This document shows, in pieces, positions 9,926 to 55,284 of a stretch of 64,000 nt of DNA (positions within the stretch are counted from its first letter, which is position 1; each line of letters opens with the position of its first letter). Below the pieces are notes generated by a model. That model worked only from the letters and a program-made list of their open reading frames with translations. It ran no database searches and had not been told where the DNA came from. Location of the stretch: the NCBI RefSeq assembly GCF_001598215.1, contig NZ_BCXJ01000002.1, positions 620,001 to 684,000 of the forward strand, read 5' to 3'. The stretch is from Shouchella clausii. Its GTDB lineage: Bacteria; Bacillota; Bacilli; Bacillales; Bacillaceae_D. The position numbers and the translations under genes were made by a program.

Positions 9926-9956
9926 TCCTTTAGCAGATAAGAATTAGCTACAAATT

Positions 9957-9983: not shown

Positions 9984-10099
9984 ATTATAGTTCATTGAAA
10001 GTATTATTCAGACCGACACAAAAGGAAATAAATAGCAAAAATTCGTTCCATTTAATATTTACATGTTAAATCTGCCTCTGTCTCGCAACCTATAAAGCA

Positions 10100-10573: not shown

Positions 10574-10662
10574 TTTTCTCAACTCCTCCTATAGATCTTC
10601 TAAAACATCGGATTTGGCAGTTTCCACTGGAACTCCTTTCTTCCTGTACCGCTATTTATCCA

Positions 10663-10851: not shown

Positions 10852-11240
10852 TGATGCCCCTCCTTTCTATGTCCCAATGCGTATCCGACCGCTCTTGGTA
10901 CGAACGCAGCAGCTAGAATAACAAGTGTGGCTCCCGCAACTGGATGCAGGGCGCCAATAAACGCTGCTTGACGCCCAATGTTGGCCGTTGCATACATGAT
11001 AAAAACCAATAGGAACAAGCTGGCGATGAAAACATAATCAGTCTTTTTCACTTTACAAAGGACAGCTATTAAGAGTAAGACAATTGGCAAGTTAAGGCCA
11101 AACAAACGAACAAATAGTGTATGGGTTAACCAGTAGCTGCCTTGGCCGAACAAAGCCATACCTGCAAAGAAAAATTGCACCAAAACACTGATAAAAAACA
11201 AGATTGCGACACTGGCATAAATAATTTTCATGATTCGCAT
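10848..11240 (-). CDS. Four-segment membrane protein, DUF6220-like
   Basis: 130 residues with four predicted membrane helices: residues about 3-27, 45-62, 68-85 and 95-117. It resembles the DUF6220 family of small Bacillus membrane proteins, of unknown function. The motif NIGRQAAFIGALHPVAGATL in the last loop and helix is the best-conserved-looking part. The ATG is preceded by AAGGGGGATGAGTGT. It forms a two-gene unit with the 62-residue membrane protein downstream through a four-base overlap. Confidence 0.6.
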   Translation of the reverse strand: MRIMKIIYASVAILFFISVLVQFFFAGMALFGQGSYWLTHTLFVRLFGLNLPIVLLLIAVLCKVKKTDYVFIASLFLLVFIMYATANIGRQAAFIGALHPVAGATLVILAAAFVPRAVGYALGHRKEGHQ

Positions 11241-11335
11241 ACACTCATCCCCCTTTTTCTAAATAACTCACACGACCATATTAGCTAATTAATATTGCGA
11301 AAAGATGACGACGCACATGAAGAGGAGAAATCAGG

Positions 11336-11494
11336 TTAGTGGTCCTTCTTTAAATGGTTGAAAAACAAGACAAGACAAGCTCCCGCCACTCCAAACACCA
11401 CTTTATCCAGCACGACCCCAATGCCTTCCTTCCCGAATACGAGCAAGCTGGCAAAGACGCCACATCCAAACCCCGCTATTGCTTTTAAAATCAT
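11336..11494 (-). CDS. Small membrane protein, 52 residues
   Basis: From ATG 11494, which has an ideal AAGGAGGTGAAGCG site, the product is 52 residues: MILKAIAGFGCGVFASLLVF, a short linker with Lys-Glu, a second hydrophobic stretch ending LVLFFNHLKKDH. A longer reading from 11536 lacks a ribosome site. Two membrane segments with a basic C-terminus; function unknown. It stands alone between the membrane pair and the histidine kinase terminator. Confidence 0.55.
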   Translation of the reverse strand: MILKAIAGFGCGVFASLLVFGKEGIGVVLDKVVFGVAGACLVLFFNHLKKDH

Positions 11495-11587
11495 CGCTTC
11501 ACCTCCTTGCTTTAACTTACAGCAACCATATTGCAAACGATTGAAGGCCAGGTGCGCTGCAGATGAAATGGCTAATTAATCTTCATA

Positions 11588-11615
11588 CAAAAAACACTTC
11601 CGCCAGCCGAAAGTG
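11588..11615 (-). terminator. Terminator of the two-component operon
   Basis: Minus strand CACTTTCGGCTGGCGGAAGTG (stem with short loop) followed by TTTTTT, directly after the kinase stop. Confidence 0.8.
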
Positions 11616-11619
11616 CTTT

Positions 11620-12939
11620 TTATTGTTTTGGCAGGATAACAGTAAATGTTGTTCCTTTCCCCATCGTGCTTTTCACATCAATGGTTCCCCCAAGAATCTG
11701 TACAAATTCTTTCGCAATGGCCAGTCCTAGTCCACTCCCCCCTGAATTGCGGTCTCTTGCTTTTTCCGTGCGGTAAAACCGGTCGAATATAAAAGGCAGC
11801 GCTGCCGAATCAATCCCTTGGCCTGTGTCTTTTACGTTTATAACGATCTTGCTATCCTCCTCCAATAATTCGACGGTAATTTCCCCGTATTCCGGTGTAT
11901 AGCGGATCGCATTCGTCATTAAATTATGCAGAACTTGGGTCATTCGTTGCTCATCAACAGTAAGAAAAACGAATTCCTCTGGTAAAGACATTGACAATTG
12001 CTGTTTTTTCTTATCAGCTTCATATTTGAGGTGACTACAGACATTTTCCACAACTGAGGCTACATTTACTCGTTTTAACGAGAGAGGCAGTTGGTCAGAT
12101 TGGGCCAATGAAAGTACTTGTAAGTCATCAATGATTGATTGGAGCCTAGCTACATCATCTTGCAATGGCAACAACTCATAAACCGGGATTTCTGCTTGAC
12201 CTAACTGAAATGATTCAAGCTTCCCTCTAATAATTGTTAATGGCGTCCGCAATTCATGGGCAATATCCGCAGTCAGTTGTTTGCGGTTTTCTTCAGCAAG
12301 CTCAAGTTGTTCTGACATCTTATTTACAGTATGTGAAATTTTATTATACTCATCCGTTGAATAGCTAGGAACTCGTCTGCTAAACTGGCCTTGGCCGATC
12401 TTGGTTAAAACCGGGATCAATGATTCTAAAGGAGCGGTTAACGTTTTCGAGACAAAATAAGCGATAACGGTGCATATTATTGTCACAATTACTGAACTTG
12501 CTACTAATGCGATCGTCATGTTGTCCCTGTAAGCATATTGCAATATCGTTAAGATTTGAATCGAGTCATCAATAAAATAAACCGTTGCTCCCTCAGCTGT
12601 ATGTGGGAGGTCCAACGTTACGGACATTCCTAAATGCTTTAGTGTTTCAATCGTTTCTTCGCCTTGCGAATAATAGCGCTCTCCAGAATCAGAAACGACT
12701 GCAATGGAATAAGGCGCAGGCACAAGTAGCTGATCGTTCATTTCTACCCAATCGCCGTCAAATTCTAAATAGGCTTCCGTAATGGCCGCTTTGATTTGAT
12801 CGCCTTTTTCCGCATGCGCGTCGTCAATAAAGTGATTTAACATCGTGTTTAACGTCACTTGCGTAACAAGAAGAGACAATAACATCGTTATTCCAATATA
12901 TACGACAAGCGTCAAAAACAGCCTTTTGCGTACCTTCAC
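11620..12939 (-). CDS. Sensor histidine kinase with HAMP domain
   Basis: 439 residues. Membrane helix at about 7-29, an extracellular sensing region of about 110 residues (30-140), second helix at about 142-164, HAMP linker (about 165-217), then the dimerisation/phosphoacceptor domain with ADIAHELRTPLT (His 228) and the ATPase domain with NLMTNAIRYTPEYGEI (N box), VKDTGQGID (G1), FIFDRFYRTEKARD (F box) and GGSGLGLAIAKEFV (G2). An EnvZ/PhoR-type kinase. The start overlaps the response-regulator stop by four bases. The signal is unknown. The next operon encodes a DrrAB-type exporter, so sensing of an envelope-active compound is possible but only inferred. Confidence 0.9.
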   Translation of the reverse strand: MKVRKRLFLTLVVYIGITMLLSLLVTQVTLNTMLNHFIDDAHAEKGDQIKAAITEAYLEFDGDWVEMNDQLLVPAPYSIAVVSDSGERYYSQGEETIETLKHLGMSVTLDLPHTAEGATVYFIDDSIQILTILQYAYRDNMTIALVASSVIVTIICTVIAYFVSKTLTAPLESLIPVLTKIGQGQFSRRVPSYSTDEYNKISHTVNKMSEQLELAEENRKQLTADIAHELRTPLTIIRGKLESFQLGQAEIPVYELLPLQDDVARLQSIIDDLQVLSLAQSDQLPLSLKRVNVASVVENVCSHLKYEADKKKQQLSMSLPEEFVFLTVDEQRMTQVLHNLMTNAIRYTPEYGEITVELLEEDSKIVINVKDTGQGIDSAALPFIFDRFYRTEKARDRNSGGSGLGLAIAKEFVQILGGTIDVKSTMGKGTTFTVILPKQ

Positions 12940-13631
12940 TTCGTATCACCAAACCGATATCCAAAACCAAATACCGTTTGTATATACTCTGGCTTAGATG
13001 GATGATCTTCTATTTTTTTACGCAATCGGCTAATATGGGCATCGACCGTCCGTTCATCATTTAACAGTTCATCTCGCAACGCTAAGTCAAGCAATTGCAA
13101 GCGACTGTATACAATATTTGGCCGTTGAGCCATCAAATACAGCAACTTAAATTCAGTTGGCGTCAACTGTACTTCAACTCCCCGCTTCCATACCCGGTAT
13201 TCGTTTTCCGAGATGACGAGCTCGCCTCGTGCCAATGTTGTCTTTTCTTCAGCATGCCCTTTCTGCACGGCCAAGCGCCGATTTAATGAATGGAGCCTTG
13301 CTGCTAATTCTCGTAGAGAAAAAGGCTTTGTAATATAGTCATCCGCTCCGGCCTCAAGCCCGAGCACCTTATCGCTTTCTTCTGACCTTGCTGTTAATAA
13401 AATAAGGCCTATGCCCGGGTTTTTTGTTCGCAGTTGCCTGCAAACGTCTACCCCACTCATGCCAGGCATCATCCAGTCGACCACCGCAATAGTAACTGAA
13501 TGGTTTGCTTCTACCTGAATGGCTTCTATTCCATTCCGTGCTGTGTACACACGGTACCCTTCTTTCTTTAAAAAATCCTCTACTAATTCGAGCACTTCTT
13601 TCTCATCATCCACAACCAATATCGAATCCAT
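12936..13631 (-). CDS. OmpR/PhoB-family response regulator
   Basis: 231 residues. Receiver domain 1-120 with the acidic pair DDE at 8-10, phosphoacceptor Asp 52 in AVVDWMMPGMSG, the Thr of LLTARS and the Lys of DYITKPFS. The winged-helix DNA-binding domain occupies about 130-229: LTPTEFKLLYLMAQRP, then DERTVDAHISRLRKKIED and the C-terminal hairpin TVFGFGYRF. It is cotranscribed with the kinase (ATGA overlap) and probably with the small membrane protein 18 bases upstream. Targets cannot be read; an adjacent ABC exporter operon is one candidate. Confidence 0.9.
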   Translation of the reverse strand: MDSILVVDDEKEVLELVEDFLKKEGYRVYTARNGIEAIQVEANHSVTIAVVDWMMPGMSGVDVCRQLRTKNPGIGLILLTARSEESDKVLGLEAGADDYITKPFSLRELAARLHSLNRRLAVQKGHAEEKTTLARGELVISENEYRVWKRGVEVQLTPTEFKLLYLMAQRPNIVYSRLQLLDLALRDELLNDERTVDAHISRLRKKIEDHPSKPEYIQTVFGFGYRFGDTK

Positions 13632-13649
13632 CTTTTCCTCCTAGGCTCA

Positions 13650-14099
13650 TCACTTTTCTAAAAACAATCCTATCCGCTTAACCGCCGCCCCAATCACGCC
13701 AACTATCAGGCCAACGACAGCGCCAGTTGCAACGCTGCTTATAAACGCAATTGGCCGTGCAATTAATTCTGCTGCTGTGTTGGAGAGATGACTTAAATTG
13801 CCGCCTAGACGTAAAGAGTCACCAAAAACATGACTCCAAAACAATTGATGAAACAGCCCAACATAAAAGCCATACCATAAACCAATGCTAAACAGCACTA
13901 CAAAAGGTTTTTTCACTTTCTTCCAAACAACATACCCCATCCAAACAATAGCCGGTACAAACACGAGAAATTGATTAGCGACTCCGTTTGGCTCAACCAA
14001 TCGTAAATCATGGGCAATGACTCTTGGCACCCCTAGTAAAGCCAGCAACAAAACTGTTCCCAACGAAACCCCTGTCCAACGGAAAAATCTTTTAGCCAT
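13650..14099 (-). CDS. Membrane protein of unknown function, first gene of a two-component operon
   Basis: 149 residues from ATG 14099, which has AAGGGAGTG seven bases upstream; a 12-residue longer reading exists but lacks a site. About four hydrophobic segments: 8-26, 40-56, 65-82 and a Gly/Ala/Val-rich one at 120-140. No family recognised. It lies 18 bases upstream of the response regulator and so is likely its operon partner; a membrane accessory of the sensor system is a reasonable guess without direct evidence. Confidence 0.65.
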   Translation of the reverse strand: MAKRFFRWTGVSLGTVLLLALLGVPRVIAHDLRLVEPNGVANQFLVFVPAIVWMGYVVWKKVKKPFVVLFSIGLWYGFYVGLFHQLFWSHVFGDSLRLGGNLSHLSNTAAELIARPIAFISSVATGAVVGLIVGVIGAAVKRIGLFLEK

Positions 14100-14190
14100 T
14101 TTAGACACTCCCTTATTATGCTTTTTCTTATTCATAAGGGTACGCTAGTCATGTTGCGAAGTTATGACGATTATAGGCACGGAAAAAAGG

Positions 14191-14224
14191 AAACGACCAG
14201 CAAATGCCTAAGCGCTGGTCGTTT
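14191..14224 (-). terminator. Terminator of the DrrAB-type ABC operon
   Basis: AAACGACCAGC...GCTGGTCGTTT, an 11-bp stem after the permease stop, followed on the minus strand by CCTTTTTTCC. Confidence 0.7.
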
Positions 14225-14228
14225 TGTT

Positions 14229-15068
14229 TTACTTCTTATTTCGGTACAAATACATCGTGAGCGGAGCAAAAACAGCTGTAATCAAAAACGATACAGCTAC
14301 TACCCAGCCTACCTGTTCACCAGTAGCCGTTCCATGCATGAAGCCACGGACGGCATCGACTAAAAGGGAGATTGGATTGATGTCGACAAAGACCTGGAGC
14401 CACGATGGCAACGTGCCTGGATCGACGAAGACATTGCTGACAAAAGTGAGCGGAAACAGCACCATCATGCTGACCATCATGAGTGACTTATCAGAACGCA
14501 TAATAAGGCCTAGTGTCGTCCAAATCCACGATAAACTGAAGCAGAAAAGCAAGATTAGCGCAACGGCAGCAATGACGCCAAGCGCTCCCCCTTCTGGACG
14601 AAACCCAAGAATAAGGCCAAGTATAATCATTATCGCCGATGCCATTGTATAGCGGACTGTGTCTACCAGCAACGAGCCGATCAAGGCCGAAGGCAGCCAG
14701 ATTGGCAACGTTCGGAAACGGTCAAAGATGCCTTTTCGAATATCGTTGTTTAAATCAAGTCCAGTATACATCGTAATTTGCGCGACGGTCATGACAAGAA
14801 TCCCTGGCAGGAGGAATTGCAAGTATTCATTTGTAGAGCCAGAAATCGCGCCGCCAAATAAATAAGTGAACATCAACAGGAAAATAACCGGAAAGACTGT
14901 CACATCAAACATTTGTTCAGGAATGTGCTTAATCCGCAGCAGCGCCCTAGTCGCGAATGTCATTGACGCAGCGAGTGGATTCGGGCGAGGTGGGCGCCTG
15001 CTTTTGGCAATCGCATCCGCTAATTGCATGCTTTGTTCTTGTTTATTTCCTTCCATTGCCTCGTTCAT
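14229..15068 (-). CDS. ABC-2 type exporter permease (DrrB-like)
   Basis: 279 residues with about six membrane helices, preceded by a roughly 45-residue cytoplasmic stretch. It carries the ABC-2 features of daunorubicin-type exporters: [19 protein letters not shown] in the first helix region, the loop [13 protein letters not shown], and [12 protein letters not shown], the DRFRTLP signature typical of DrrB. It probably pairs with the upstream ATPase to export a hydrophobic drug or lipid. Its ATG overlaps the ATPase stop by four bases. Confidence 0.9.
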
Positions 15069-16048
15069 TCACTTTCCTCCTTTTCTTCCTCTGGTGTTTG
15101 CACCATTTCGCCAGTCAGCGTCAAAAAGACTTCATCTAGACTCGGCTGTCCAAGGGAAAATGTACGGACAGCTATGTTTGCGCTCGCTAACTTTCCTACA
15201 GCCGCTGCCGCAACATCTGGATTACCCGTTTGCGCGGTAAGCGACGTCGGGTCTTTTCCAGGATGCACCATGGTGTTCTGATCTTCCGCCAGCAATTGCA
15301 TCGCCCTTTCCCGATCGCTTGCATGTTGCAGCGTCAAGTGGAGTGTATTCGTGCCAACCGATGCTTTCAACTCACTGCTTGTGCCTTCAGCAATAATCTT
15401 GCCATGGTTGATAACGGCAATCCGGTCCGCAAGCTGGTCAGCCTCCTCCAAATATTGCGTCGTTAGGAGCACGGTCGTCCCAGCATCGACTAATGTACGG
15501 ACAATATCCCACACTTGGTTGCGGCTCCGGGGATCAAGCCCTGTGGTTGGTTCATCAAGAAACAGCAGTTCAGGCGTTACAACAATGCTGGCCGCAATGT
15601 CTATGCGGCGCCGCATCCCGCCTGAGTAATTTTTCACTTGCCTTTTTGCGGCTTCCTCTAATCCAAATGCATGGAGCAATTCTTCCCCTCGCCGTTTTGC
15701 TTGTTTTCGCTTATATCCCATAAGCCGGGCAATCATCGTCAAATTTTCAATGCCAGTTAAATCTTCATCAATGGAAGCGTATTGTCCTGTTAAACTGATC
15801 CGGCTTCTGACTGCATCTGTTTCTTTGGCGAGGTCATGGCCAAAGATCTTCGCCTCACCGCCATCTGGTTTTAAAAGAGTCGCAAGCATGCGGATTGTCG
15901 TCGTCTTTCCCGCCCCGTTTGGCCCAAGAAACCCATAGACCGTTCCTTTTACGACAGACAAATCGACACCATCAACAGCCCGATGCTTGCCAAATACTTT
16001 CACGAGGCCTTTCGCCTCGATCGCCTTTTCTTCTGCCATTTGTCCCAA
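15065..16048 (-). CDS. ABC exporter ATPase (DrrA-like)
   Basis: 327 residues, start TTG 16048 behind AAGGGGGC (an ATG three codons later is poorly spaced). Walker [12 protein letters not shown] loop GQYASIDE, signature [11 protein letters not shown], Walker [13 protein letters not shown], and switch His region [11 protein letters not shown] where Gln replaces the usual His, as in daunorubicin-type DrrA proteins. The roughly 90-residue C-terminal part contains the DrrA-type extension [11 protein letters not shown]. It forms a two-gene exporter with the permease. The natural substrate is unknown; family members export daunorubicin and other amphiphiles. Confidence 0.9.
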
Positions 16049-44732: not shown

Positions 44733-46139
44733 TTATTTCAGATTTGATTTCTCTTTAAAGCCAACCATCCATGTAAGGGCGAACGCTACCCCAAATCCAA
44801 TGACGCAGACTGCAATGTACGGGATGATTTGCGCGTTCAAGTACAGCAGCATACCTGGGATGACTGTGATCGACATGCCTGTTGCCTGGACATCGAGGAT
44901 CCGGGCAAAGAATCCAGCGACGGCGCCACCGATCAAGCCCATCAGGAACGGCTTGCCGTAACGGATATTCACACCGAAAATGGCCGGCTCCGTAATGCCT
45001 AACAGTGCAGATAGAGAAGAAGGATAAGCAATCGACTTCGTTTTGAGGCTTTTCGCCTTCATGCCAACGGCCAAGGCGGCTCCTGCTTGTGCAGCGATCG
45101 AACCAGAACTGATCGCATTGACCATATTCCAGCCAGTGTCACTCAGCATTTGAATTTCGATCAAGTTTAAGGCATGATGGAGCCCAGTCACAACGATAAA
45201 TTGATTAATGCCACCATAGATGAAGCCGCCAATTCCGAACGGCAACTGCAGGATCCATGTAACTGCTGACAAGATCAACATTTCTACTTCGTGGAACACA
45301 GGACCGAGCACAAACAGTCCTAGCATTAGGGCGATCAGCAAGGTTAGAAATGGCGTCAAAATTAAATCTAACGCAGCGGGAACGAGTTTGCGGATCCTTT
45401 TTTCTAGCAACGCACCAACTATACCGATAATAAACGCAGGCAACACCGATCCCTGATAACCGGCTACTTTTATAAATCCAAGGAACATTAGCGGTTCCTG
45501 AACATTCTGGGCGATATCCCATGACGTTGGCAGGGAAGGGCTGACGAGCATTAAGCCGAGCACAATCCCAAGCAGCGGTGATCCGCCAAACACCCGGAAG
45601 GTTGACCAACATACGAGCACGGGCAAGAAACCAAAAGCAGTGTCTGTCAAAATTTGCGTGAACACTAAGAAATTGTCGGAAATGCTGTCTGGAGTAAGTC
45701 CAAACCATGCGAGGATGGCAGGCTGTGTAATAAGGCCTCTGACACCCATAAATAATCCCGTAGCAACCAACGCTGGGATAATCGGTACGAATACGTCCCC
45801 GAAAACCCGGATCATTCGCTTAAAGAAATGATCATCTTGCTCAGAAGCCTTCTCTTTCAATTCCGCTTTGGAAGTAGAAGAGACGTCCTCTCCAATCATC
45901 GCTTCATATACCCTATTGACGGTACCGGTTCCAAAAATGATTTGATATTGCCCGGAAGTAAAAAAGACCCCTTTAGCCTTGTCCACGTTCTCAATAAATT
46001 CATCATCAATGATGTCCCGATCCTTGACGATCAGTCTAAGACGTGTGGCACAATGTGCCATCGATATGATATTTTCTTTTCCCCCAAGCCCTTTAATTAC
46101 ATCCTGAGCAATTTTTTGATATTCCTTTTCAGGCCCCAT
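44733..46139 (-). CDS. PTS transporter subunit EIIBC, sucrose/beta-glucoside family
   Basis: 468 residues from ATG 46139, preceded by AAGGAAGAGACAG; the longer frame has no site. EIIB domain 1-80 with the phosphocysteine Cys 30 in ISMAHCATRLRLIVKDRD, followed by EIIC with about 10 helices, including GGINQFIVVTGLHHALNLIE and LGITEPAIFGVNIRYGKPF. It lacks an EIIA domain, as in SacP/ScrA, so it relies on EIIA-Glc from elsewhere. It imports and phosphorylates its sugar. First gene of the operon; a cre-like site lies upstream. Confidence 0.9.
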   Translation of the reverse strand: MGPEKEYQKIAQDVIKGLGGKENIISMAHCATRLRLIVKDRDIIDDEFIENVDKAKGVFFTSGQYQIIFGTGTVNRVYEAMIGEDVSSTSKAELKEKASEQDDHFFKRMIRVFGDVFVPIIPALVATGLFMGVRGLITQPAILAWFGLTPDSISDNFLVFTQILTDTAFGFLPVLVCWSTFRVFGGSPLLGIVLGLMLVSPSLPTSWDIAQNVQEPLMFLGFIKVAGYQGSVLPAFIIGIVGALLEKRIRKLVPAALDLILTPFLTLLIALMLGLFVLGPVFHEVEMLILSAVTWILQLPFGIGGFIYGGINQFIVVTGLHHALNLIEIQMLSDTGWNMVNAISSGSIAAQAGAALAVGMKAKSLKTKSIAYPSSLSALLGITEPAIFGVNIRYGKPFLMGLIGGAVAGFFARILDVQATGMSITVIPGMLLYLNAQIIPYIAVCVIGFGVAFALTWMVGFKEKSNLK

Positions 46140-46189
46140 CTGTCTCTTCCTTTCAATTAATAAGTAGCTTCCTGCTTCTAAGCATATCA

Positions 46190-46204
46190 AGATGGCGCTT
46201 ACAA
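46190..46204 (-). promoter_or_regulatory. Candidate CcpA (cre) site of the PTS operon
   Basis: Minus strand TTGTAAGCGCCATCT compared with the cre consensus WTGNAANCGNWNNCW: one mismatch. About 50 bases before the PTS start, suited to catabolite repression. Confidence 0.55.
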
Positions 46205-46473
46205 TCAGCGGTATTATTTTACGTGATTAAGGGCAAATTTTGACCTTTTGTACCTTTTCCCCTGGCAAAACGGGCGAAACAACAATATATGTAAGCTATT
46301 TCTAAATTCTGGACGTCACTTCCGTTGCAATGTAAGTAAACATAAAGTGTATTTTGTCCAAAGATATTCTTTATAAACCTTAAATTGATGAGTACTATAA
46401 TTGTCCATGCCATCTAGATTCGCCTCTAGTCTTTATTTATGGCAATGATCGATACAATGGTTGGTTAGGATTG

Positions 46474-46502
46474 AAAAAAAGACCGTCAGAAGACGATCTT
46501 TT
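46474..46502 (-). terminator. Terminator of the KAS-BVMO cluster
   Basis: Minus strand AAAAGATCGTC-TTCT-GACGGTCTTTTTTT, four bases after the BVMO stop. It closes the six-gene cluster. Confidence 0.8.
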
Positions 46503-46505
46503 ATT

Positions 46506-48164
46506 TTAAATTTTTTCTTCGTTATAAGTAGGAATCATTGAAAATCCCTCATAATCTTTGGCTGCAATACGATCACATATTTGACGATAGTTGCCGACGC
46601 CTCCCAGATAAGCTAAGAACCCTCTTGGCTTACCTTCGATATTCGCTCCCATCCACCAGGAATCCGTCTTGGTAAACAACGTAGCGTCAGCAATCACCTC
46701 ACAATGCTTGCTCCAGCCTTCTTCTGCCTCCACCGTTGCTTCAAAGGCTTCAATCTGGTTCTGGCGAAGGTATCCAATACAGTCGGAAATCCATTCAACG
46801 TGCTGCTCAATGGAAACCAACATATTGCCTATCACAGAAGGACTCTGAGGGCCTGTAATCATAAAAAGATTAGGAAAATCAGCGACTGCTATTCCTAGAT
46901 AAGTCCTTAATCTTGCTCCCTCTTCCCACTTTTCCTTCAACGAGATTCCAGACTTACCATGGATATCCATTTTGAATAAGGGCCCTGTCATGGCATCAAA
47001 TCCAGTTGCACATACAATCATGTCCAGTTCATACATTGCTTCCGCTGTCCGAATCCCCGTTAAGGTGATCTCTTCAATCGGGACCGACCTAACATCAACC
47101 AAAGAGACATTGTCACGGTTAAAGGTTTCAAAATAATGACTGTCAATAATCGGCCGCTTTGTACTGTAATAGTACGTGGGCATTAGCTTCTCTGCTACAT
47201 CTGGGTCATGAACGCTTTCCCGTATCTTGGATCGAACGAAATCGGCGATCGTTTCATTTGCTTTTGGATTGAAAAGCACATCTCCATAGCTATACAACAA
47301 GGAAAAAAGCTTGCCTTCCTCCCACGCTTTCTCAAATACTTGCTGCCGCTCTTCTGGTGAATCTTCCAGCGCCGACCGTTCACTGAACTCGTATGGTATA
47401 CCATGCATCGATGCACACATCTGTTTCTTAATGGCACTGTAGTTTTCTACTGTTTTCTGTAGGTACTCCGGTTCGTACGGATGATTTTTTGCTGGGGCGC
47501 TGTACTGCGGCGTACGTTGAAAAACAGTTAGATGCTTCGCTTCTTCGGCAATAATCGGGATGGACTGGATACCGCTTGAGCCTGTCCCAATCACACCGAC
47601 CCGCTTACCGGTAAAGTCTACCCTTTCATGCGGCCAATGGCCGGTATGGTACAACTCGCCTTTGAAGCTATCTAAGCCCTTAAAATTCGGCATATTTGAG
47701 GCAGATAGGCACCCTACCGCTGTGATAAAGTATTTTGCCGACACCTTCATGCCATTGCTAGTTTGGATATTCCATCTATGGGTTTGATCATCATAATGGG
47801 CTGCCATAACCTTCGTCCCTAATTGGATATCACAACGCAGGTCGAACTTATCCGCGACGTAGTTGATATAACGTAAGATTTCCGGCTGATCTGCATACCT
47901 TGATGTCCATGTCCACTCATGAAGCAGTTCTTCAGAAAACGTGTAGTTATAATAGATGCTTTCTATGTCACAGCGCGCTCCAGGATAACGATTCCAATAC
48001 CATGTCCCTCCGACACCTTCACCAGCTTCATACACTCGGACGGATAAACCAGCTTCTCGTAAACGATGAAGCATATACAAACCCGAAAATCCTGCGCCGA
48101 CAACAACCGCATCAAAGTCAGAGCCTCGGCTTGCTTGTTTAGTAGATACTGCCTTTGACCTCAT
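46506..48164 (-). CDS. Baeyer-Villiger-type flavin monooxygenase
   Basis: 552 residues. FAD Rossmann motif VVGAGFSGLYMLHRL, the BVMO fingerprint FKGELYHTGHWP (FxGxxxHTxxWP), and the NADPH Rossmann motif VIGTGSSGIQS. Length and motifs match cyclohexanone/phenylacetone monooxygenases. These insert oxygen next to a ketone carbonyl, giving esters or lactones. As last gene of the KAS cluster it may oxidise a ketone made by the upstream enzymes. Substrate not predictable. It lies 80 bases after the SDR gene. Confidence 0.9.
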   Translation of the reverse strand: MRSKAVSTKQASRGSDFDAVVVGAGFSGLYMLHRLREAGLSVRVYEAGEGVGGTWYWNRYPGARCDIESIYYNYTFSEELLHEWTWTSRYADQPEILRYINYVADKFDLRCDIQLGTKVMAAHYDDQTHRWNIQTSNGMKVSAKYFITAVGCLSASNMPNFKGLDSFKGELYHTGHWPHERVDFTGKRVGVIGTGSSGIQSIPIIAEEAKHLTVFQRTPQYSAPAKNHPYEPEYLQKTVENYSAIKKQMCASMHGIPYEFSERSALEDSPEERQQVFEKAWEEGKLFSLLYSYGDVLFNPKANETIADFVRSKIRESVHDPDVAEKLMPTYYYSTKRPIIDSHYFETFNRDNVSLVDVRSVPIEEITLTGIRTAEAMYELDMIVCATGFDAMTGPLFKMDIHGKSGISLKEKWEEGARLRTYLGIAVADFPNLFMITGPQSPSVIGNMLVSIEQHVEWISDCIGYLRQNQIEAFEATVEAEEGWSKHCEVIADATLFTKTDSWWMGANIEGKPRGFLAYLGGVGNYRQICDRIAAKDYEGFSMIPTYNEEKI

Positions 48165-48244
48165 CTTACTGTCCCTCCTAATCGTTTAATTGAGGCATAG
48201 CTTTCGTCTGCGAAGGTTCATCTTTTAAACGTTCACTATGGATT

Positions 48245-49063
48245 TCAGGATAATGTTTGGGTCATATGTTCAAGAAACGCTTCTTCGCCCAACTCTCTAC
48301 GAAGCTTCAAAAGCGCTTTTGCATCTTCACCAACAACATACCTCAACTGGTGAGTTCCGTCCGTCGCTGCCTGATAGATGGTCTCCGCAATCAATTGTGG
48401 GGATGATATGCTGTCAGAATTTATGGTTGTTTCCTGTAGTGCTGACTGGGCCGATTTGAAGTATTCTTGATAATCTGTCAACGAATCATCGGACACTATC
48501 TCGATCGATCTTCCGAAAAAGTCAGTTTTGACCACACCAGGCTCAATCAACTTTAATCGGATATTTTGAGAAGCAAGTTCGAATGTTAAAGCTTCAGTGA
48601 AGCCTTCAACTGCAAATTTAGTGGAGTGATACAGCGACAATGTAGGAAACCCTATTTTCCCCCCCATTGAAGAGATATTGATGATTATTCCATCATTTTT
48701 AGCTCTGAAATGAGGAAGAATAGTCTTTATCGTCCTCATAAGGCCAAATACGTTTACTTCAAATTGTTTTTCAATTTGCTCGTTTGAAGCTGCCTCAAAG
48801 ATGCCCATAGTGCCGTAACCAGCATTATTTAATAGGACATCGATGGTACCAAATCGCTCTATTCCAACCTTTACGGCTTCTTGAATTGTCGCTTGTTGCT
48901 CAACGTCGAGCTTGGTTACTAAAACATTGTCTAGCTGAGACAGTTCCGTTTCTTTTTCCGGTGAACGCATGGTAGCAACCACATTCCATCCTTTTGCAGC
49001 AAAATGCCTGGCTGCGGCTTTTCCAATTCCAGACGATGAGCCAGTAATCAAAATCGTTTTCAT
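48245..49063 (-). CDS. Short-chain dehydrogenase/reductase
   Basis: 272 residues, classical SDR: LITGSSSGIGKAAARHFA, NNAGYGTMG, the catalytic Ser in INISSMGGKIG and Tyr/Lys in YHSTKFAVEGF. The C-terminal region is longer than in FabG and resembles retinol/17-beta-hydroxysteroid-type reductases. In this cluster a keto-group reduction (or the reverse oxidation) of an acyl intermediate is plausible. Start ATG 49063 with GAGGAGGAAAATAA before it. Confidence 0.88.
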   Translation of the reverse strand: MKTILITGSSSGIGKAAARHFAAKGWNVVATMRSPEKETELSQLDNVLVTKLDVEQQATIQEAVKVGIERFGTIDVLLNNAGYGTMGIFEAASNEQIEKQFEVNVFGLMRTIKTILPHFRAKNDGIIINISSMGGKIGFPTLSLYHSTKFAVEGFTEALTFELASQNIRLKLIEPGVVKTDFFGRSIEIVSDDSLTDYQEYFKSAQSALQETTINSDSISSPQLIAETIYQAATDGTHQLRYVVGEDAKALLKLRRELGEEAFLEHMTQTLS

Positions 49064-49113
49064 TTATTTTCCTCCTCGTAGATAAAGAATCATTTCTAGT
49101 TTTATTACATAAA

Positions 49114-50349
49114 TCACTGGTATTTTCTAAAAACAATTACAGCACTAGATCCTCCAAAACCGAAGGAATTTGATAAACCAATATTTAGGGTCGCGTTATT
49201 TTCTTTCTCTCTAACAATATTAAGATTTACCTTTGGATCAAGATGATTTATGTTTATCGTAGGGGGAATGATGTTTTCTTCTAACGTTTTAAGTAAAGCG
49301 ATTGCTTCCACTCCGCCTGCGGCACCCAATAGATGACCGATCGTTGACTTATTCGCTACTACAGGTATTTCTTCAGCCCGCTCTTTAAACAATTTAGTAA
49401 TAGCCATCGTCTCAGAAATGTCTCCTACCTTCGTACTCGTCGCATGTGCACTAATGATGTCAACCTCGTCAATGGTTATACCTGCATTTAACAATGCATT
49501 TCTCATCGCTAAGAAGGCACCTATTCCTTCAGGATGACTAGCGATTGGATGATACGCATCTGAATTTAATGCATAGCCAACCATTTCACCAATAATAGGC
49601 GCATCTCTCTTTAGAGCATGTTCCAAAGATTCCAGAATCAATATTCCTGCACCTTCACTCATAACAAAACCATCACGATCCTTATCAAAGGGCCGACTTG
49701 CCAACGTTGGAGTATCGTTCCTTGTCGATAAGGCTTTTGCGTTACTAAAACTGGCAACGGAAACCTTATTTATTATTCCCTCACTACCACCTGCAAACAT
49801 TACATCCGCTTCATTATTTTGAATGGCTTTATACGCTTCGCCTATTGCTGTGTTTCCAGCCGAACACGCTGTTACGGTGCCTAAGGTAGGTCCTAATGTA
49901 CCAAAACGAATCGAAATATTTGCCGCCGCCATATTATCGATCATCATTGACATTAAGTTAGGATTTACCCTACTCGCTCCACGATGATTAAGAAGATCAA
50001 CACTTTCTATTAAAGTATCTATACCTCCTGCACCAGTTCCCACGTATACCCCTATACGCTCACGATTTATTTTATCTAATGGTAACTCCGATAGCTCAAA
50101 TGCTTGTTCTGCGGCAGCTAAGGCAAATTGGGTAAATCGTGACAGTTTTCTGGCTTCTTTACGCCCCCAACGGCCTTCTGCATCGAAATTCTTTACTTCA
50201 CCTGCAATTCTAGTATTTAAATCGGATGAATCAAAAGCTTCTATCGTTGAAATTCCAGATTTCCCTTCAATTAAATGATTCCAGAACGTTTCTACACTGT
50301 TGCCTATTGGTGAGATGACTCCCATGCCCGTGACGACTACTCTTCTCAT
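49114..50349 (-). CDS. Beta-ketoacyl synthase II (FabF-like) of a biosynthetic cluster
   Basis: 411 residues, normal KAS II length. The Cys-His-His triad is intact: Cys 162 in TVTACSAGNTAI, His 302 in ISAHATSTKVGD, His 339 in KSTIGHLLGAAGG. It elongates acyl-ACP with malonyl-ACP. It sits far from any fatty-acid operon, between the acetoacetate decarboxylase and an SDR, so it is probably a dedicated copy with its own chain preference. Sequence composition is more AT-rich than the surrounding core genes. AAAGGAGTGACTAT precedes the ATG. Confidence 0.9.
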   Translation of the reverse strand: MRRVVVTGMGVISPIGNSVETFWNHLIEGKSGISTIEAFDSSDLNTRIAGEVKNFDAEGRWGRKEARKLSRFTQFALAAAEQAFELSELPLDKINRERIGVYVGTGAGGIDTLIESVDLLNHRGASRVNPNLMSMMIDNMAAANISIRFGTLGPTLGTVTACSAGNTAIGEAYKAIQNNEADVMFAGGSEGIINKVSVASFSNAKALSTRNDTPTLASRPFDKDRDGFVMSEGAGILILESLEHALKRDAPIIGEMVGYALNSDAYHPIASHPEGIGAFLAMRNALLNAGITIDEVDIISAHATSTKVGDISETMAITKLFKERAEEIPVVANKSTIGHLLGAAGGVEAIALLKTLEENIIPPTININHLDPKVNLNIVREKENNATLNIGLSNSFGFGGSSAVIVFRKYQ

Positions 50350-50432
50350 ATAGTCACTCCTTTCAATGGTTTCGAAGGAAATCTACACGAAATATTCGCC
50401 TTTCAATCGGATGGCGATGCTATTGGATACAT

Positions 50433-51173
50433 TTACTGTCCCACCAAATAGTCATAAACAACGTCCGGCATGGATAACGCCAAATCAGTAACAATATGCG
50501 ATGCTGATACAACCTCAAGCACGGGAAGATCAGCCATTGGAGCCAGAGCATGGGCAAACAATTGCAGCCTGGCCTGAGCCGTCCAGGCACCATGAATGGT
50601 TATATCTTTGATCTGAGCACGCACCAGCCGGCATACCTTCTGACTTCCATCATAATTCGGCACAATTTTTAGCATATATGTTGGCTGGCAAATCTCTTGC
50701 CGGGCCTTCTCCGGGTCGAGAGGCTGATGTTTATATCCCATTGTCGCGGTGGCCACACGTAAGGACCCATAGTCCAGAGTTCCGACTAATGTGTCCGAAT
50801 CAATGTACAGTCTTGGAGAGCCCAGTTTTTTCGGATATGCGCTGATCTCCCGCCCAGAAGCGATCGCAGGATGATTATCCACGTACATGGCATGTAGGTA
50901 TTCACCCCTCTCCCCATTGAAGCTCACCGGTATTACCTGGCCCGCTTCTGTATAAGCCCCCAAACCGGTAACATCCGGCATGTACATGATCTCAAATTTG
51001 ACCAAAGGTTCATCAATTTCAAGCGGCTCAGGAACTACGCGTCTCAGAGCTTCCATATCCGTACGGTATAGAATATTTAGATACTCCCGATTATAAAAAA
51101 AGTATGGGCCGACAGGAAAAGCAGGAGCCCCCAATGGGGTCGACATTTGCTTGCGTACATCATTTATCTTCAT
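50433..51173 (-). CDS. adc: Acetoacetate decarboxylase
   Basis: 246 residues from ATG 51173, directly after the methyltransferase stop with AAAGGTGATGACCAG as site; the longer frame runs through the methyltransferase and is spurious. It closely follows the clostridial Adc: VPEPLEIDEPLVKFEIM, VIPVSFNGERGEYLHAMYVD, and the Schiff-base Lys 115 with its pKa-lowering neighbour Lys 116 in REISAYPKKLGSPRL at the same numbering. It decarboxylates acetoacetate to acetone and could accept other 3-oxo acids. No ctfAB (CoA transferase) genes are nearby, so the acid would have to come from the KAS products or thioester hydrolysis. Confidence 0.92.
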   Translation of the reverse strand: MKINDVRKQMSTPLGAPAFPVGPYFFYNREYLNILYRTDMEALRRVVPEPLEIDEPLVKFEIMYMPDVTGLGAYTEAGQVIPVSFNGERGEYLHAMYVDNHPAIASGREISAYPKKLGSPRLYIDSDTLVGTLDYGSLRVATATMGYKHQPLDPEKARQEICQPTYMLKIVPNYDGSQKVCRLVRAQIKDITIHGAWTAQARLQLFAHALAPMADLPVLEVVSASHIVTDLALSMPDVVYDYLVGQ

Positions 51174-51180
51174 CTGGTCA

Positions 51181-52119
51181 TCACCTTTCCGCTTTTTGGA
51201 CTTCCATAAAAACAATTGTCTGGTGATCTTCCACAAATATATCAACATCATTAATCTTTTCTTTAGGAAGTTCTGCTAATAATTCTTGCATTTGATCCTC
51301 ATTGCGATAAATGAGCCACCAATCCATGACAGCTTCCATATACGCAATAGTGGGAGAGCCTGGATGATAGTTAATGATTAACAATCGACCGCCTGGATGG
51401 AGCAGCTCAAACAATTTTTTTGTTAATCGTTTAGCAAGTTTGTCTGAAAGATAATCATATACACCAAGAGAGTATATAAAGTCAAATTTAGGAAGAGGCA
51501 CTTTATTTCTAATAATGTCAACAACAGAAGCTGGGATCGTTTCTCCAAAGCCCTGTATTGCTTCTGCAGCAACCGAAAGAGCCTTCTGATCTTGATCAAT
51601 GGCGACAAACTTTCCAATCGTTTTGTTTTTCACCGCATCGCAATCCGATGTTTCTCTTAAATGACCACAAGCGACCGAGAGAATAGAAGGATTCGCAACA
51701 CGTTCTGAGGTTTGGTTTATCTTTTTGGAAAGGATACGTCTTCTTTCCCGGTTCGCATTATTAGCATGAGCTAGACGGTTGAGGTCGTACCATAGAAAAT
51801 CGGCAATCTCTGATTGTTCATTATCGTAGGGTGATAATTCTAATTTTTCAAAATCGTACTGTAGGTCCAACATTAGGGGATCGCCAGCATACCCTCGCGG
51901 TTTTTCAAAAGCTCGACGAGATAGAGGCTCTTGCCAGAAAAAACGGCTTACTGGATGCTCACGATAGTAAGTGATAAATTTTTTCCAATCTTCTGCAGAA
52001 GAATGTTGACGTATGCCTCTTAATTCATTATAAAGAGTGCTTAAAGCCTCAGTGTATTGGCCTTGGCTAATTTTCGTTTCAAGATTATTAAGTAAATTTC
52101 CGGTGACAGTTTGTCCCAT
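51181..52119 (-). CDS. SAM-dependent methyltransferase, PhcB-like
   Basis: 312 residues from ATG 52119, behind AGGAGGAAACTAAAAAG. The N-terminal 110 residues include SRRAFEKPRGYAGDPLML, a pattern I associate with the Ralstonia PhcB group annotated as 3-hydroxy fatty-acid methyl ester synthases. The C-terminal Rossmann domain has the SAM-site stretch ILSVACGHLRE and VAIDQDQKAL, then FDFIYSLGVYDYLSD and LHPGGRLLIINYHPG. Role in the cluster: methylation of a carboxylate or hydroxyl of the product. The PhcB link is from memory of the family and needs a search. AT-rich compared with neighbours. Confidence 0.75.
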   Translation of the reverse strand: MGQTVTGNLLNNLETKISQGQYTEALSTLYNELRGIRQHSSAEDWKKFITYYREHPVSRFFWQEPLSRRAFEKPRGYAGDPLMLDLQYDFEKLELSPYDNEQSEIADFLWYDLNRLAHANNANRERRRILSKKINQTSERVANPSILSVACGHLRETSDCDAVKNKTIGKFVAIDQDQKALSVAAEAIQGFGETIPASVVDIIRNKVPLPKFDFIYSLGVYDYLSDKLAKRLTKKLFELLHPGGRLLIINYHPGSPTIAYMEAVMDWWLIYRNEDQMQELLAELPKEKINDVDIFVEDHQTIVFMEVQKAER

Positions 52120-52300
52120 CTTTTTAGTTTCCTCCTCTTTAGCACTCTGCTTCAAACATACGGTATATCTATAACCTGTTTACCGGTTTTTTAGCACGAA
52201 AACAAACAAAAACTAGCTATAGTTTTGTAAACATTTGAAATTCACACACGCCGTGTATAGTCGATCCATACAAAGCTTACTTTTTAGATTCAGATACGAC

Positions 52301-53290
52301 TTACCAAATAACAGAGCAAACAGACCACGAAAACCCAACTCCAAAACCAACTAACATAAGCTTGTCTCCCCGTTTTATTTTGCCATCCCTTAATTCATGA
52401 TACAGGGCGATCGGGATCGTAGATGAGACTGTATTTCCGTACTCACGCAGTTGAATGGAAAACTTTTCTTCGGGAATTTCTAACCTTTCCCTTAGCGCCT
52501 TCATCATATGTTCATTCGCTTGATGAAAAACAAAATAGTCATAGTCAGTAATCGTCTCATTGTTTTGCTGAAGAAATTTTTTAACACAGCTTGTAACTTC
52601 TTTCGAAGCAAATTTAAAAATTTTATAACCATTCATATATAAATTTACTCTTGAACGGATATTGCCTTTATCATCTTGCCGTTCCATTAGTGAGTCAGTT
52701 GTTTGTCGTTCGCGCATTCCACCAGCGGGAACAATTAGATTCTCGCCACCGCTTCCATCAGTACCAAATTCAAAAGGCCCTATAGAAGAATAAGATCGCT
52801 CACAACTCGTTATTAAAGTGGCAGCTGAACCATCTCCGAATAATTCTGTGACCGAATAGTCTCTTGGATGAATAAATTTACTGTAGGTATCTGCAGTAAT
52901 CAATAAAACATTCTTTGCTGTTCCTGTTTCAACCAATCCTTTTGCGAGCGATAAACCATACACAAAACCTGAACAACCAAGATTTATATCTAAAGCTCCG
53001 CAGGAGGTTGGCAAACCAATTCGATCTTGAATTAAACAAGCAGTCGTAGGCAAGTAATGATCAGGTGATTGTGTACACAATAATAAAAAATCGATATCTG
53101 CAGGTCTACACACATTTGAATCAAACAGTTTTCGGGCAGCTTCACAAGCTAAATCTGAAGCAAGTTCATCTTCTCCAGCAATATGTCGTGAATGGATACC
53201 GATTTTTTGAGTTAGTTTGCTTTCCGGATCGTTTTGAACTTTATGATGAGGAACAAAAAATTCAATGGATTTGATGTAGCTTGAATACAT
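52301..53290 (-). CDS. Beta-ketoacyl synthase III-like (KAS III) condensing enzyme
   Basis: 329 residues with the full Cys-His-Asn triad: Cys 106 in DINLGCSGFVYG, His 256 in FVFHQANEHMM, Asn 286 in EYGNTVSSTIP. KAS III enzymes start chains by condensing an acyl-CoA with malonyl-ACP. Some DarB/CerJ-like relatives instead form esters or condense two acyl units. The GFGVGFSWS tail is normal for a functional FabH. It is the first gene of the cluster, with GAGGGGGATGGC before its ATG. A short overlapping upstream ORF (53262-53351) reaches 29 bases into it. Confidence 0.9.
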   Translation of the reverse strand: MYSSYIKSIEFFVPHHKVQNDPESKLTQKIGIHSRHIAGEDELASDLACEAARKLFDSNVCRPADIDFLLLCTQSPDHYLPTTACLIQDRIGLPTSCGALDINLGCSGFVYGLSLAKGLVETGTAKNVLLITADTYSKFIHPRDYSVTELFGDGSAATLITSCERSYSSIGPFEFGTDGSGGENLIVPAGGMRERQTTDSLMERQDDKGNIRSRVNLYMNGYKIFKFASKEVTSCVKKFLQQNNETITDYDYFVFHQANEHMMKALRERLEIPEEKFSIQLREYGNTVSSTIPIALYHELRDGKIKRGDKLMLVGFGVGFSWSVCSVIW

Positions 53291-53351
53291 GCCATCCCCC
53301 TCGTTTGCGACAGATTTCTATTTTTACATTGTGCGCTCTTTTTGTAGCCAT
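53262..53351 (-). CDS. Possible 29-codon leader ORF upstream of the KAS III gene
   Basis: ATG 53351 stands nine bases after a perfect AAGGAGGTG. The 29-residue peptide is basic (MATKRAHNVKIEICRKRGG...) and its stop lies inside the KAS III gene, in another frame. The KAS III ribosome site lies inside this ORF. It could couple or limit translation of the cluster. It may also be a coincidental start. Confidence 0.4.
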   Translation of the reverse strand: MATKRAHNVKIEICRKRGGWHVFKLHQIH

Positions 53352-53847
53352 GATGTTGTTCACCTCCTTAAATAATAAAATCCGACACTCTCTGTCAGCA
53401 ATGAACAGGGGAATTTTTATATTTCACTTTATACTCCTCTTCTTAATCCTTGTTAGTATCCTATTACTGTAAAATCAACCCCCCCAAAATTGAATTTAAT
53501 AGTCAGTAAAATTGAACAGAATAAATTAAAATTAAATATTTGCAATTTTAATGGTAAATAAACTCCTTATGTTTAAAATAATTATTCGTGAAGAGTTGCC
53601 AAAACCATAATTCTATTTTTTCACAATTTAATAAATCTGTTTCAAAACGAATCTATTATCTATTAATAGATTACACTTCTATCATTTTAATTACAAGAGT
53701 TTTTTTGATTAAAAATTCGATTTATTTATTGGAAATCCTTTATTCATCATGCTTTTTTTGGGGATTTCCTCCATACTAGTATTCTATTATACTTTTATTA
53801 CATATAATTTACTAGATTTCTATTAATTTTATTAATAGATTATTAAA
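53352..53847. other. AT-rich non-coding region upstream of the KAS cluster
   Basis: About 500 bases, far more AT-rich than the rest of the window. The part near 53380-53500 must hold the cluster promoter (minus-strand TTGATTTTACAGTAATAGGATACT contains -35 and -10 like boxes at poor spacing). The remainder to 53847 is nearly all A/T with no ORF or hairpin. It looks like the edge of an acquired segment. Confidence 0.5.
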
Positions 53848-53870
53848 AAGCTGCGCTCAGAGCGCAGCTT
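53848..53870 (-). terminator. gabD terminator
   Basis: AAGCTGCGCT-CAG-AGCGCAGCTT, perfect 10-bp stem, followed on the minus strand by TTTTTAATAATC, four bases after the gabD stop. Confidence 0.85.
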
Positions 53871-53874
53871 AGCT

Positions 53875-55284
53875 TTACATTTTTAAAGAAACGTACTTGC
53901 TTTCAAGAAATTCTTCTAATCCTTCACGGCCTCCCTCACGGCCAACCCCGCTTTGCTTGAAACCACCAAACGGCGCCTGGGCAACCGATGGGCCGCCGTC
54001 GTTTAAACCGACTACACCGTAGTCCAGCTTTTCTGTAACTCGAATCCCGCGGTTTAGATCAGTGGTAAATAAGTAGGCGGCAAGCCCGTAAATTGTATCA
54101 TTTGCCCGTTTGACGACTTCTTCTTCTGTCTTAAAAGTAGATATCGGCGCAAGGGGCCCGAACGTTTCTTCTGACATGCATGCCATGTCGTCGGTTACTC
54201 CTGCTATGACAGTTGGTTCAATAAACAGCCCGTCTCTGCTGTTTCCTCCTGTTAGTACTTCTGCCCCTTTGTCTTTTGCATCTTGAATATGGGTAAGGAC
54301 TTTATCAACTGCATCTTCATCAATCAGTGGGCCGATGTCTGTCTCCTCGTTCAACCCATTCCCCACTTTCAACTGCTCGACTGCTTCTTTCATTTTCGTT
54401 GTAAACGCCTGTGCAATGGACGCATGCACGTATATACGATTGGCGCATACGCACGTCTGTCCGCCATTACGGAATTTGGAGGCGATTGTTTCTTGGACAG
54501 CGTTATCGATATCGGCATCTTCAAACACAAGGACCGGTGCATGTCCGCCAAGCTCCAAAGAAATTTTCTTAACGGTTTGCCCCGCTTCACTCATAAGAGT
54601 ACGGCCGATTTCTGTAGAGCCGGTAAACGTCAACTTGCGGACGCGCTCGTCTTCCTGCCACGCTTTTGAGATTTCGCTAGTTGAGCCAACAACAACATGG
54701 AGCACGCCTTTTGGCAACCCGGCTTTTTCAGCAAGCTCTGCTAGCTTCAATGCAGTCAATGGCGTTTGCGATGCTGGTTTGATCAGCACTGTGCAGCCTG
54801 CCGCCAACGCCGGTGCCACTTTTCGCGTAATCATGGCGGCCGGGAAATTCCACGGTGTAATCGCGGCGACGACACCCACAGGCTGTTTTATCACAAATAA
54901 ACGTTTATCAGGGGATGAAGCCGGAATGGTTTCCCCGTATATGCGTTTGCCTTCTTCTGCATACCACTTTATAAATGAATTGGCATAGGTGATTTCCCCT
55001 CGCGCTTCGTTGATTGGTTTGCCTTGTTCCATTGTCATTAATCGAGCTAGTTCCTCTTTCTGTTCAGCAATAAGATCATGCCACGCCTCTAATGTTGCGC
55101 TTCGTTCATAAGCTGTACGCGCTGCCCATGCCGGCAACGCCTCGTAGGCACTATCGGCGGCGATTTTTGCCTCCTTCGCTCCTCCTTTCGGCACCGAGCC
55201 GACAACTTCGCCAGTAGCCGGATTAACAACGTCAAACACATCCAGCCCTTCGCTGACCCATTCGCCATTTATAAAAAGTTTCAT
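53875..55284 (-). CDS. gabD: NAD(P)-dependent succinate-semialdehyde dehydrogenase
   Basis: 469 residues, aldehyde dehydrogenase family. Cofactor site AITPWNFPAAMITRKVAPAL, catalytic Glu in LELGGHAPVLVF and catalytic Cys in RNGGQTCVCANRIYVH. The start INGEWVSEGLDVFDVVNPAT and C-terminal GVGREGGREGLEEFLESKY are typical of GabD/glutarate-semialdehyde dehydrogenases. It oxidises succinate semialdehyde to succinate in 4-aminobutyrate use; no gabT is adjacent. A related short aldehyde substrate is possible. Monocistronic with its own terminator. Confidence 0.88.
   Translation of the reverse strand: MKLFINGEWVSEGLDVFDVVNPATGEVVGSVPKGGAKEAKIAADSAYEALPAWAARTAYERSATLEAWHDLIAEQKEELARLMTMEQGKPINEARGEITYANSFIKWYAEEGKRIYGETIPASSPDKRLFVIKQPVGVVAAITPWNFPAAMITRKVAPALAAGCTVLIKPASQTPLTALKLAELAEKAGLPKGVLHVVVGSTSEISKAWQEDERVRKLTFTGSTEIGRTLMSEAGQTVKKISLELGGHAPVLVFEDADIDNAVQETIASKFRNGGQTCVCANRIYVHASIAQAFTTKMKEAVEQLKVGNGLNEETDIGPLIDEDAVDKVLTHIQDAKDKGAEVLTGGNSRDGLFIEPTVIAGVTDDMACMSEETFGPLAPISTFKTEEEVVKRANDTIYGLAAYLFTTDLNRGIRVTEKLDYGVVGLNDGGPSVAQAPFGGFKQSGVGREGGREGLEEFLESKYVSLKM

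Follow-up and report, generated by a model that had tools for sequence, protein, structure and literature searches.

A locus in Shouchella with shared tailoring genes and different ketosynthase sets in two strains

Gene content of the locus

We examined a six-gene locus in a 64,000-nucleotide stretch of DNA (hereafter, the window) from a 4.66-Mb assembly of Shouchella clausii. The genes encode two ketoacyl-acyl carrier protein synthases (KAS III and KAS II), a methyltransferase (MT), an acetoacetate decarboxylase (Adc), a short-chain dehydrogenase/reductase (SDR) and a Baeyer-Villiger monooxygenase (BVMO). The initial annotation had described them as six same-strand genes at 46506-53290 that end at one terminator. 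We found six full-length open reading frames (ORFs) there, all on the minus strand, and the assigned families were confirmed. In the direction of transcription, the locus comprises:

53848-53870, minus strand: terminator hairpin marking the upper border of the unit, 3' of the upstream aldehyde dehydrogenase gene (fold of 53843-53880, then a U run)
52301-53290, minus strand: KAS III, 329 aa, putative dedicated initiating ketosynthase (C106-H256-N286)
51181-52119, minus strand: class I S-adenosylmethionine (SAM)-dependent methyltransferase MT, 312 aa, with a KPRGYAGD motif
50433-51173, minus strand: acetoacetate decarboxylase Adc, 246 aa (K115-K116)
49114-50349, minus strand: KAS II, FabF-type, 411 aa, assigned to the chain-building module of the window allele
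48245-49063, minus strand: SDR, 272 aa (PF00106, 175 bits)
46506-48164, minus strand: class I BVMO, 552 aa, phenylacetone/steroid monooxygenase type
46477-46502, minus strand: terminator hairpin 3' of the BVMO gene, lower border of the unit (U tail; fold of 46471-46510)

The hairpin after BVMO (46502-46477), which agrees with the terminator of the initial annotation, had a folding energy of -13.6 kcal/mol (z -5.1; 0 of 200 shuffles equally stable), and the one on the aldehyde dehydrogenase side had -16.0 kcal/mol (z -3.0; 1 of 200 shuffles equally stable); neither was picked up by a consensus terminator scan of the window. For MT and Adc we chose ATG starts (52119 and 51173), where the ORF list gives a longer TTG start at 52155 and a start at 51251, respectively. 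The intergenic gaps from KAS III to BVMO measured 181, 7, 83, 50 and 80 nt, and an Rfam search of 46000-54500 (E up to 1) detected no RNA element in the leader or the gaps. We detected no further ORF longer than 80 aa within 46400-53870, which leaves no room for a thioesterase, nonribosomal peptide synthetase (NRPS) or modular polyketide synthase (PKS) gene. The carrier-protein domain PF00550 was matched three times in the whole window genome (C6:224858, C1:173357 and C2:148707), always outside the window; thus, the locus in this strain has no carrier protein of its own.

The catalytic residues of KAS III, KAS II, Adc, SDR and BVMO, read as intact in the initial annotation, were all at the named positions. 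In particular, KAS III (PF08545/PF08541) was closest among solved structures to 3gwa (345 bits; runner-up 194 bits) and has the triad C106/H256/N286 in place. KAS II scored 537 bits against TIGR03150 (cut-off 494), with C162/H302/H339 in place. Adc scored 280 bits against PF06314 and 390 bits against NF002614 (cut-off 150), and its closest solved relative was the acetoacetate decarboxylase 3bh2 (393 bits), which we take to be clostridial; the motif P114-K115-K116 is kept, and the family scores together with Lys115 and Lys116 place the protein among the acetoacetate decarboxylases. The SDR has the catalytic pair Y145..K149. The closest solved class I relatives of the BVMO were phenylacetone monooxygenase (1w4x, 661 bits) and steroid monooxygenase (4ap3, 593 bits), and it belongs to class I by its fingerprint FxGxxxHxxxWP (from residue 167) and two Rossmann motifs. 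Finally, the predicted structure of MT (pLDDT 84.9) has a class I methyltransferase fold; the 50 matches listed in a fold search were all class I methyltransferases or related SAM enzymes with varied substrates, none of them telling for MT.

We compared both ketosynthases (KS) with those encoded elsewhere in the window genome (G000), which contains an adjacent fabH-fabF pair at G000:C4:186.7-188.8 kb that we presume, from the adjacency, to be housekeeping. Window KAS II showed 46% identity to the FabF of this pair and 40% to a further KS, encoded on C1, while KAS III showed 33% and 44% over two stretches to the adjoining FabH, and 38% and 29% to other copies over most of their length. Housekeeping orthology, which the initial annotation had set against its proposal of a dedicated cluster, was rejected at these 33-46% identities to the pair; judged by sequence identity, neither window KAS is a housekeeping enzyme. 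The best plasmid match of KAS III was encoded on Burkholderia glumae pBGF3 (52%; the next among the matches listed 40%), in a flagellar/glycan island where vioA, acyl carrier protein (ACP), SDR and acetyltransferase genes lie downstream of flagellar genes. Two Deinococcus matches (40%) likewise adjoin an ACP gene, whereas the window allele has neither ACP nor sugar genes. A separate cluster of the window genome (L106, G000:C1:157500-177000, about 8199-16034) contains the KS with 40% identity to KAS II, a phosphopantetheinyl transferase (PPTase) match, an ABC transporter, a methyltransferase and a PF00550 domain (34 bits), then an aminotransferase/synthase-like frame, the functions being partly judged by eye.

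A second allele in a strain of the same species

The corresponding locus of a genome classed as the same species (G305) shares its flanks with the window at 99.1-99.4% identity below BVMO (99.4% over 7.3 kb) and 98.8% over 2 kb above KAS III. Its gene order is MT, Adc, FabG-like ketoreductase (KR), ACP, KS, chain length factor (CLF), FabZ, PPTase, FabA-type dehydratase (DH), FabI, SDR and BVMO. MT, Adc, SDR and BVMO are thus retained in the same order as in the window, KAS III is absent, and a type II PKS set occupies the place of KAS II:

49095-50442, minus strand: swapped segment, with KAS II in the window and about 7.1 kb of KR-ACP-KS-CLF-FabZ-PPTase-DH-enoyl reductase in G305

The second KS-like protein of G305 has Gln where an active-site Cys would be expected (ATGQCAG, starting at residue 168), a substitution typical of CLFs. 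Together with the KS and the ACP, which has a PP-binding match, it identifies the G305 allele as a type II PKS (L086 3492-6215), whereas the window allele has one FabF-type KAS and no CLF or ACP in the locus. FabZ scored above one of the two NCBIfam FabZ cut-offs, and the FabI-type enoyl reductase above the NF006369 cut-off. For the dehydratase (414 aa, two FabA-type stretches), a relative on an Azospirillum plasmid, adjacent to KS-like frames, was 47% identical, and a second from Streptomyces globosus, whose gene adjoins PfaD, was 32% identical.

Among known systems, the G305 allele resembles the highly reducing type II PKSs in its ACP, KS, CLF with the Cys-to-Gln change, KR and FabZ. Its KS had 9s5h as best and 6kxd as second-best solved match, the latter presumably an ishigamide-type KS. 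PMC10698177 describes this subfamily as comprising KS-CLF, KR and DH. Differences are the missing CLF and ACP of the window allele, the dehydratase of polyunsaturated fatty acid (PUFA) synthase type and the FabI that G305 adds, and the presence of Adc, BVMO and MT in both Shouchella alleles. The cispentacin-type Amc system, according to the same paper, is likewise a small type II PKS set (a compact ACP/KS/CLF/hotdog system that borrows the host FabI); however, the G305 proteins scored below the AmcB, AmcE and AmcF model cut-offs, and decarboxylation is by the hotdog enzyme AmcE there and presumably by Adc in Shouchella (PMC10698177). Finally, the 414-aa dehydratase matches dehydratase regions of PfaC type that have PfaD or KS domains as neighbours, but it stands alone in a type II setting, is absent from the window allele, and is the only PUFA-synthase-like part found at the locus, where no multidomain PfaA-D was present.

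We located the borders of the exchange by blastn between window and G305. Homology is lost at the 3' end of Adc, at 50443 (the gene itself ends at 50433), and returns at 49094, which is 31 nt ahead of the SDR start. The breakpoints therefore sit at gene borders and the exchanged parts correspond to whole genes; in the interval between the breakpoints, the sole match was 206 nt at 65% within the two KS genes. On the outside, homology breaks at 46397/46393, beyond the BVMO terminator, and at 53646, within the leader. Inside these outer breaks, the shared genes have 76-83% DNA identity. The MT, SDR and BVMO of G305 match those of the window at 61%, 73% and 83%, respectively.

Substitution rates were estimated by Nei-Gojobori, under which the high dS values are approximate. 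Between window and G305, dS was 0.90 for MT, 0.80 for Adc, 0.90 for SDR and 0.42 for BVMO, versus 0.009 for the adjacent phosphotransferase system (PTS) gene, and dN/dS was 0.30, 0.09, 0.19 and 0.23 for the four cluster genes, respectively. Between the window and Shouchella rhizosphaerae (G302), KAS III had a dS of 0.26, near that of flanking genes (0.20 and 0.22), while MT, BVMO and Adc had 0.46, 0.49 and 0.90; dN/dS was 0.09-0.22 for these four genes. Between G305 and G302, the dS of BVMO (0.22) was near that of the flank (0.23). With dN/dS of about 0.30 or less in all compared genes, the shared genes are, by these estimates, diverged between strains yet under purifying selection, and the mosaic of dS values is more in keeping with recombination among diverged alleles than with simple descent.

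Distribution within and outside the genus

Our genus sample comprised 13 genomes. In 10 of the 12 besides the window genome, we read the sequence that follows the orthologue of the aldehyde dehydrogenase gene on its downstream side; G245 and G304, lacking a full close match to that gene, were excluded. Cluster genes were present in three of the ten (G305, G302 and G299), and no cluster gene was found within the 11 kb fetched from each of the other seven. KAS III was detected in two of the 13 genomes, the window genome and G302, with no close copy in the remaining 11. The G302 locus (NZ_FRBS01000001.1) encodes KAS III, MT, Adc and BVMO at 93%, 82%, 87% and 81% identity to the window, but KAS II and SDR residues 1-172 are missing and the SDR remainder is frameshifted. 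All that is left in G299 is a BVMO with a frameshift and a match of 45 nt to MT.

Three further observations concern these loci. A 29-codon ATG ORF (33 codons from an upstream GTG) at 53351-53262 of the window, minus strand, has a strong Shine-Dalgarno sequence and runs across the start of KAS III in a different frame. At the matching place, G302 (L077 2255-2344) has an ORF of 29 codons with an identical end point and a different N-terminus, and the overlap is possibly a case of translational coupling. Between the aldehyde dehydrogenase and BVMO genes of G299 (L076), the terminator hairpin sequence of the former was seen by eye to occur twice, with extra sequence between. Another Shouchella genome has KS (44% to the G305 KS), KR, FabZ and ACP matches together elsewhere (L108, G301:C1:2186000-2205900).

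We also searched 299 genomes of the order, five of the 13 genus genomes among them but neither G302 nor G305, with MT, Adc, KAS III and BVMO one at a time. No second copy of the gene set was found by these single searches, and the window's own genome was the only one with strong scores for two or more of MT, Adc and KAS III. MT was matched in 11 of the 299 genomes at E up to 0.001, strongly only in its own genome (E 1e-220) and in G181 (43%, E 6e-72), where no other cluster gene was present in the 19.9 kb read. Adc was matched in seven, strongly in its own genome, G183, G298 and G263, and the latter three had no further cluster gene in 19.9 kb. At E up to 1e-60, KAS III was found in 1/299 and BVMO in 12/299. 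BVMO surroundings were read in eight of the 11 other genomes, at nine places (four of which contig ends shortened to 5.8-16 kb; G035, G171, G235 and further BVMO copies were left out); none of the nine had MT, Adc or KAS, one had SDRs at 29-37%, and two had distant aldehyde dehydrogenase matches. We did not count as sets a BVMO of G205 whose contig also has a weak 24% Adc match, 64 kb distant, nor the weak MT and Adc matches of G295. A PfaC-like dehydratase was found neither in the window's own genome nor in the 299 genomes, the latter an uninformative result as that sample has no positive genome; in a phylum sample it had weak partial matches in 15 of 398.

Relatives of MT were found elsewhere at 12 loci including L018, and no KAS, Adc or BVMO lies beside the other 11, although SDR/KR matches (27-30%) neighbour two of Archangium. 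Among plasmids, 144 records have an MT relative below 60% identity, and the surroundings were read for two, on Nitratireductor and Rhizobium plasmids (L071/L072), where the gene is divergent from an adjoining gene for a GGDEF-domain phosphodiesterase. In the open-licence PMC literature we found no description of a cluster uniting BVMO, acetoacetate decarboxylase, ketosynthase and methyltransferase, nor of a pathway combining Baeyer-Villiger oxidation, acetoacetate decarboxylase and methyl ketones; the papers in that literature on Bacillus clausii and type II PKSs included none evidently on the window locus, judging by titles and the openings of abstracts.

The co-occurrence of the cluster genes in relatives, which the initial annotation had proposed as a check, was seen in Shouchella and only there, and of the three relatives that have cluster genes, two look decayed. 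The initial proposal of a dedicated cluster was supported, with non-housekeeping KASs and with Adc, MT, SDR and BVMO linked in another strain of this species as well. The six genes are not a fixed pathway: the tailoring set of MT, Adc, SDR and BVMO is constant in the two strains, whereas KAS II is replaced and KAS III absent in G305. Likewise, the stated lack of a carrier protein describes the window allele and not the locus, because the type II PKS set of G305 has its own ACP and PPTase.

Proposed pathway and alternatives

A better description than a six-gene pathway is, on sequence grounds, a polymorphic locus with exchangeable chain builders, because the same tailoring genes lie in the same order at the same locus of the same species next to a different builder, and because flanks of about 99% identity surround shared genes of 76-83% DNA identity. 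What the sequences show directly is the gene content, the active-site motifs, the exchange of alleles at gene borders and the purifying selection. We consider it probable that this is a strain-variable specialised-lipid (polyketide/fatty-acid-like) locus, with MT-Adc-SDR-BVMO as constant tailoring set and an exchangeable chain builder. In the window strain, KAS III would start the chain and the dedicated FabF-type KAS II would lengthen it, with ACP, reductase and dehydratase borrowed from the host fatty acid synthase. The sister strain would instead build the chain with its highly reducing type II PKS set, which brings an ACP and a PPTase of its own. Either builder would make a 3-oxoacyl chain, and after release as a 3-oxo acid, Adc would decarboxylate it to a methyl ketone, which the BVMO would turn into an acetate ester. 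The SDR may adjust a ketone or hydroxyl, and MT may cap a carboxylate or hydroxyl or methylate a carbon. Phenylacetone and steroid monooxygenases act on methyl ketones. The BVMO step has a precedent in a Rhodococcus BVMO that, according to PMC12724338, converts 2-hexadecanone and 2-dodecanone into acetate esters and is only about 30% similar to phenylacetone monooxygenase.

Several points weigh against this reading, which was built on two strains of one species and two decayed relatives, so that the species-level comparison covers only two genomes. The locus is broken in G302 and G299 and is therefore dispensable. No thioesterase or CoA transferase that could free a 3-oxo acid for Adc was found in the locus. 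Given the 181-nt gap 3' of it, KAS III may be transcribed separately from the other five genes. In G305, the KR frame (L086 2695-3453) has no ATG, GTG or TTG ahead of the nucleotide-binding motif, and its first in-frame ATG, at 2839, gives a 204-aa protein; this KR may therefore need an unusual start or be impaired. The G305 BVMO (L086 10711-12375) has GTSSTG as second Rossmann motif, compared with GTGSSG in the window, and may bind NADPH differently owing to this change.

The breakage in the relatives also bears on the alternative that the window allele is a decaying hybrid that has lost its original type II PKS builder, gained KAS II incidentally and makes no product. The losses of KAS II and of part of the SDR in G302, the remnants in G299, and the lack of an ACP or release enzyme in the window allele agree with this; but none of the six window ORFs is truncated and their active-site motifs are intact, dN/dS is 0.09-0.30 for the four genes shared with G305 and 0.09-0.22 for the four compared with G302, and the breakpoints sit at gene borders, so we regard decay as rather unlikely.

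The locus could instead make a fatty-acid methyl-ester signal, with MT acting like PhcB of Ralstonia, KAS III and KAS II setting the chain length, and Adc, SDR and BVMO modifying or degrading the signal. The KPRGYAGD motif of MT may point to PhcB, and MT relatives adjoin GGDEF phosphodiesterase genes on the two plasmids mentioned above. The methyltransferase activity of PhcB is essential for making 3-hydroxy fatty acid methyl ester autoinducers, according to PMC6989110. Against this, the window locus has no sensor kinase ORF, and none was obvious by eye beside the one Burkholderiales MT relative inspected; a signal of this kind seems unlikely. Very unlikely is a catabolic or detoxifying operon for ketones or acetoacetate, in which Adc would yield acetone or a methyl ketone, SDR would interconvert alcohol and ketone, BVMO would form an ester for hydrolysis and the KAS genes would be bystanders: the closeness of Adc to enzymes named acetoacetate decarboxylase and the existence of BVMO-type subterminal degradation (PMC12724338) speak for it, but no esterase, thiolase or CoA transferase was found in the locus, which also sets Adc apart from a solventogenic operon such as the clostridial sol operon with its CoA transferase (no further ORF above 80 aa), a biosynthetic PKS set lies amid the shared genes in the sister allele, and neither KAS is housekeeping.

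We therefore return to the strain-variable lipid locus with exchangeable builders. As a speculative extension that we hold to be improbable, strains of one species may exchange whole builders (KAS III/KAS II versus type II PKS) at this chromosomal locus, flanked by constant tailoring genes, by homologous recombination and so make strain-specific ketone or ester lipids as a polymorphic chemical signature or signal. If the reading of the locus is right, a natural module exchange in a fatty-acid/polyketide pathway would have been caught within one species, with the same Adc, BVMO, SDR and MT paired with two very different chain builders. The builder swap would offer a direct experimental handle, in closely related strains with different builders, and the locus would point to an uncharacterised metabolite class in Shouchella, a genus that includes industrial and probiotic bacilli.

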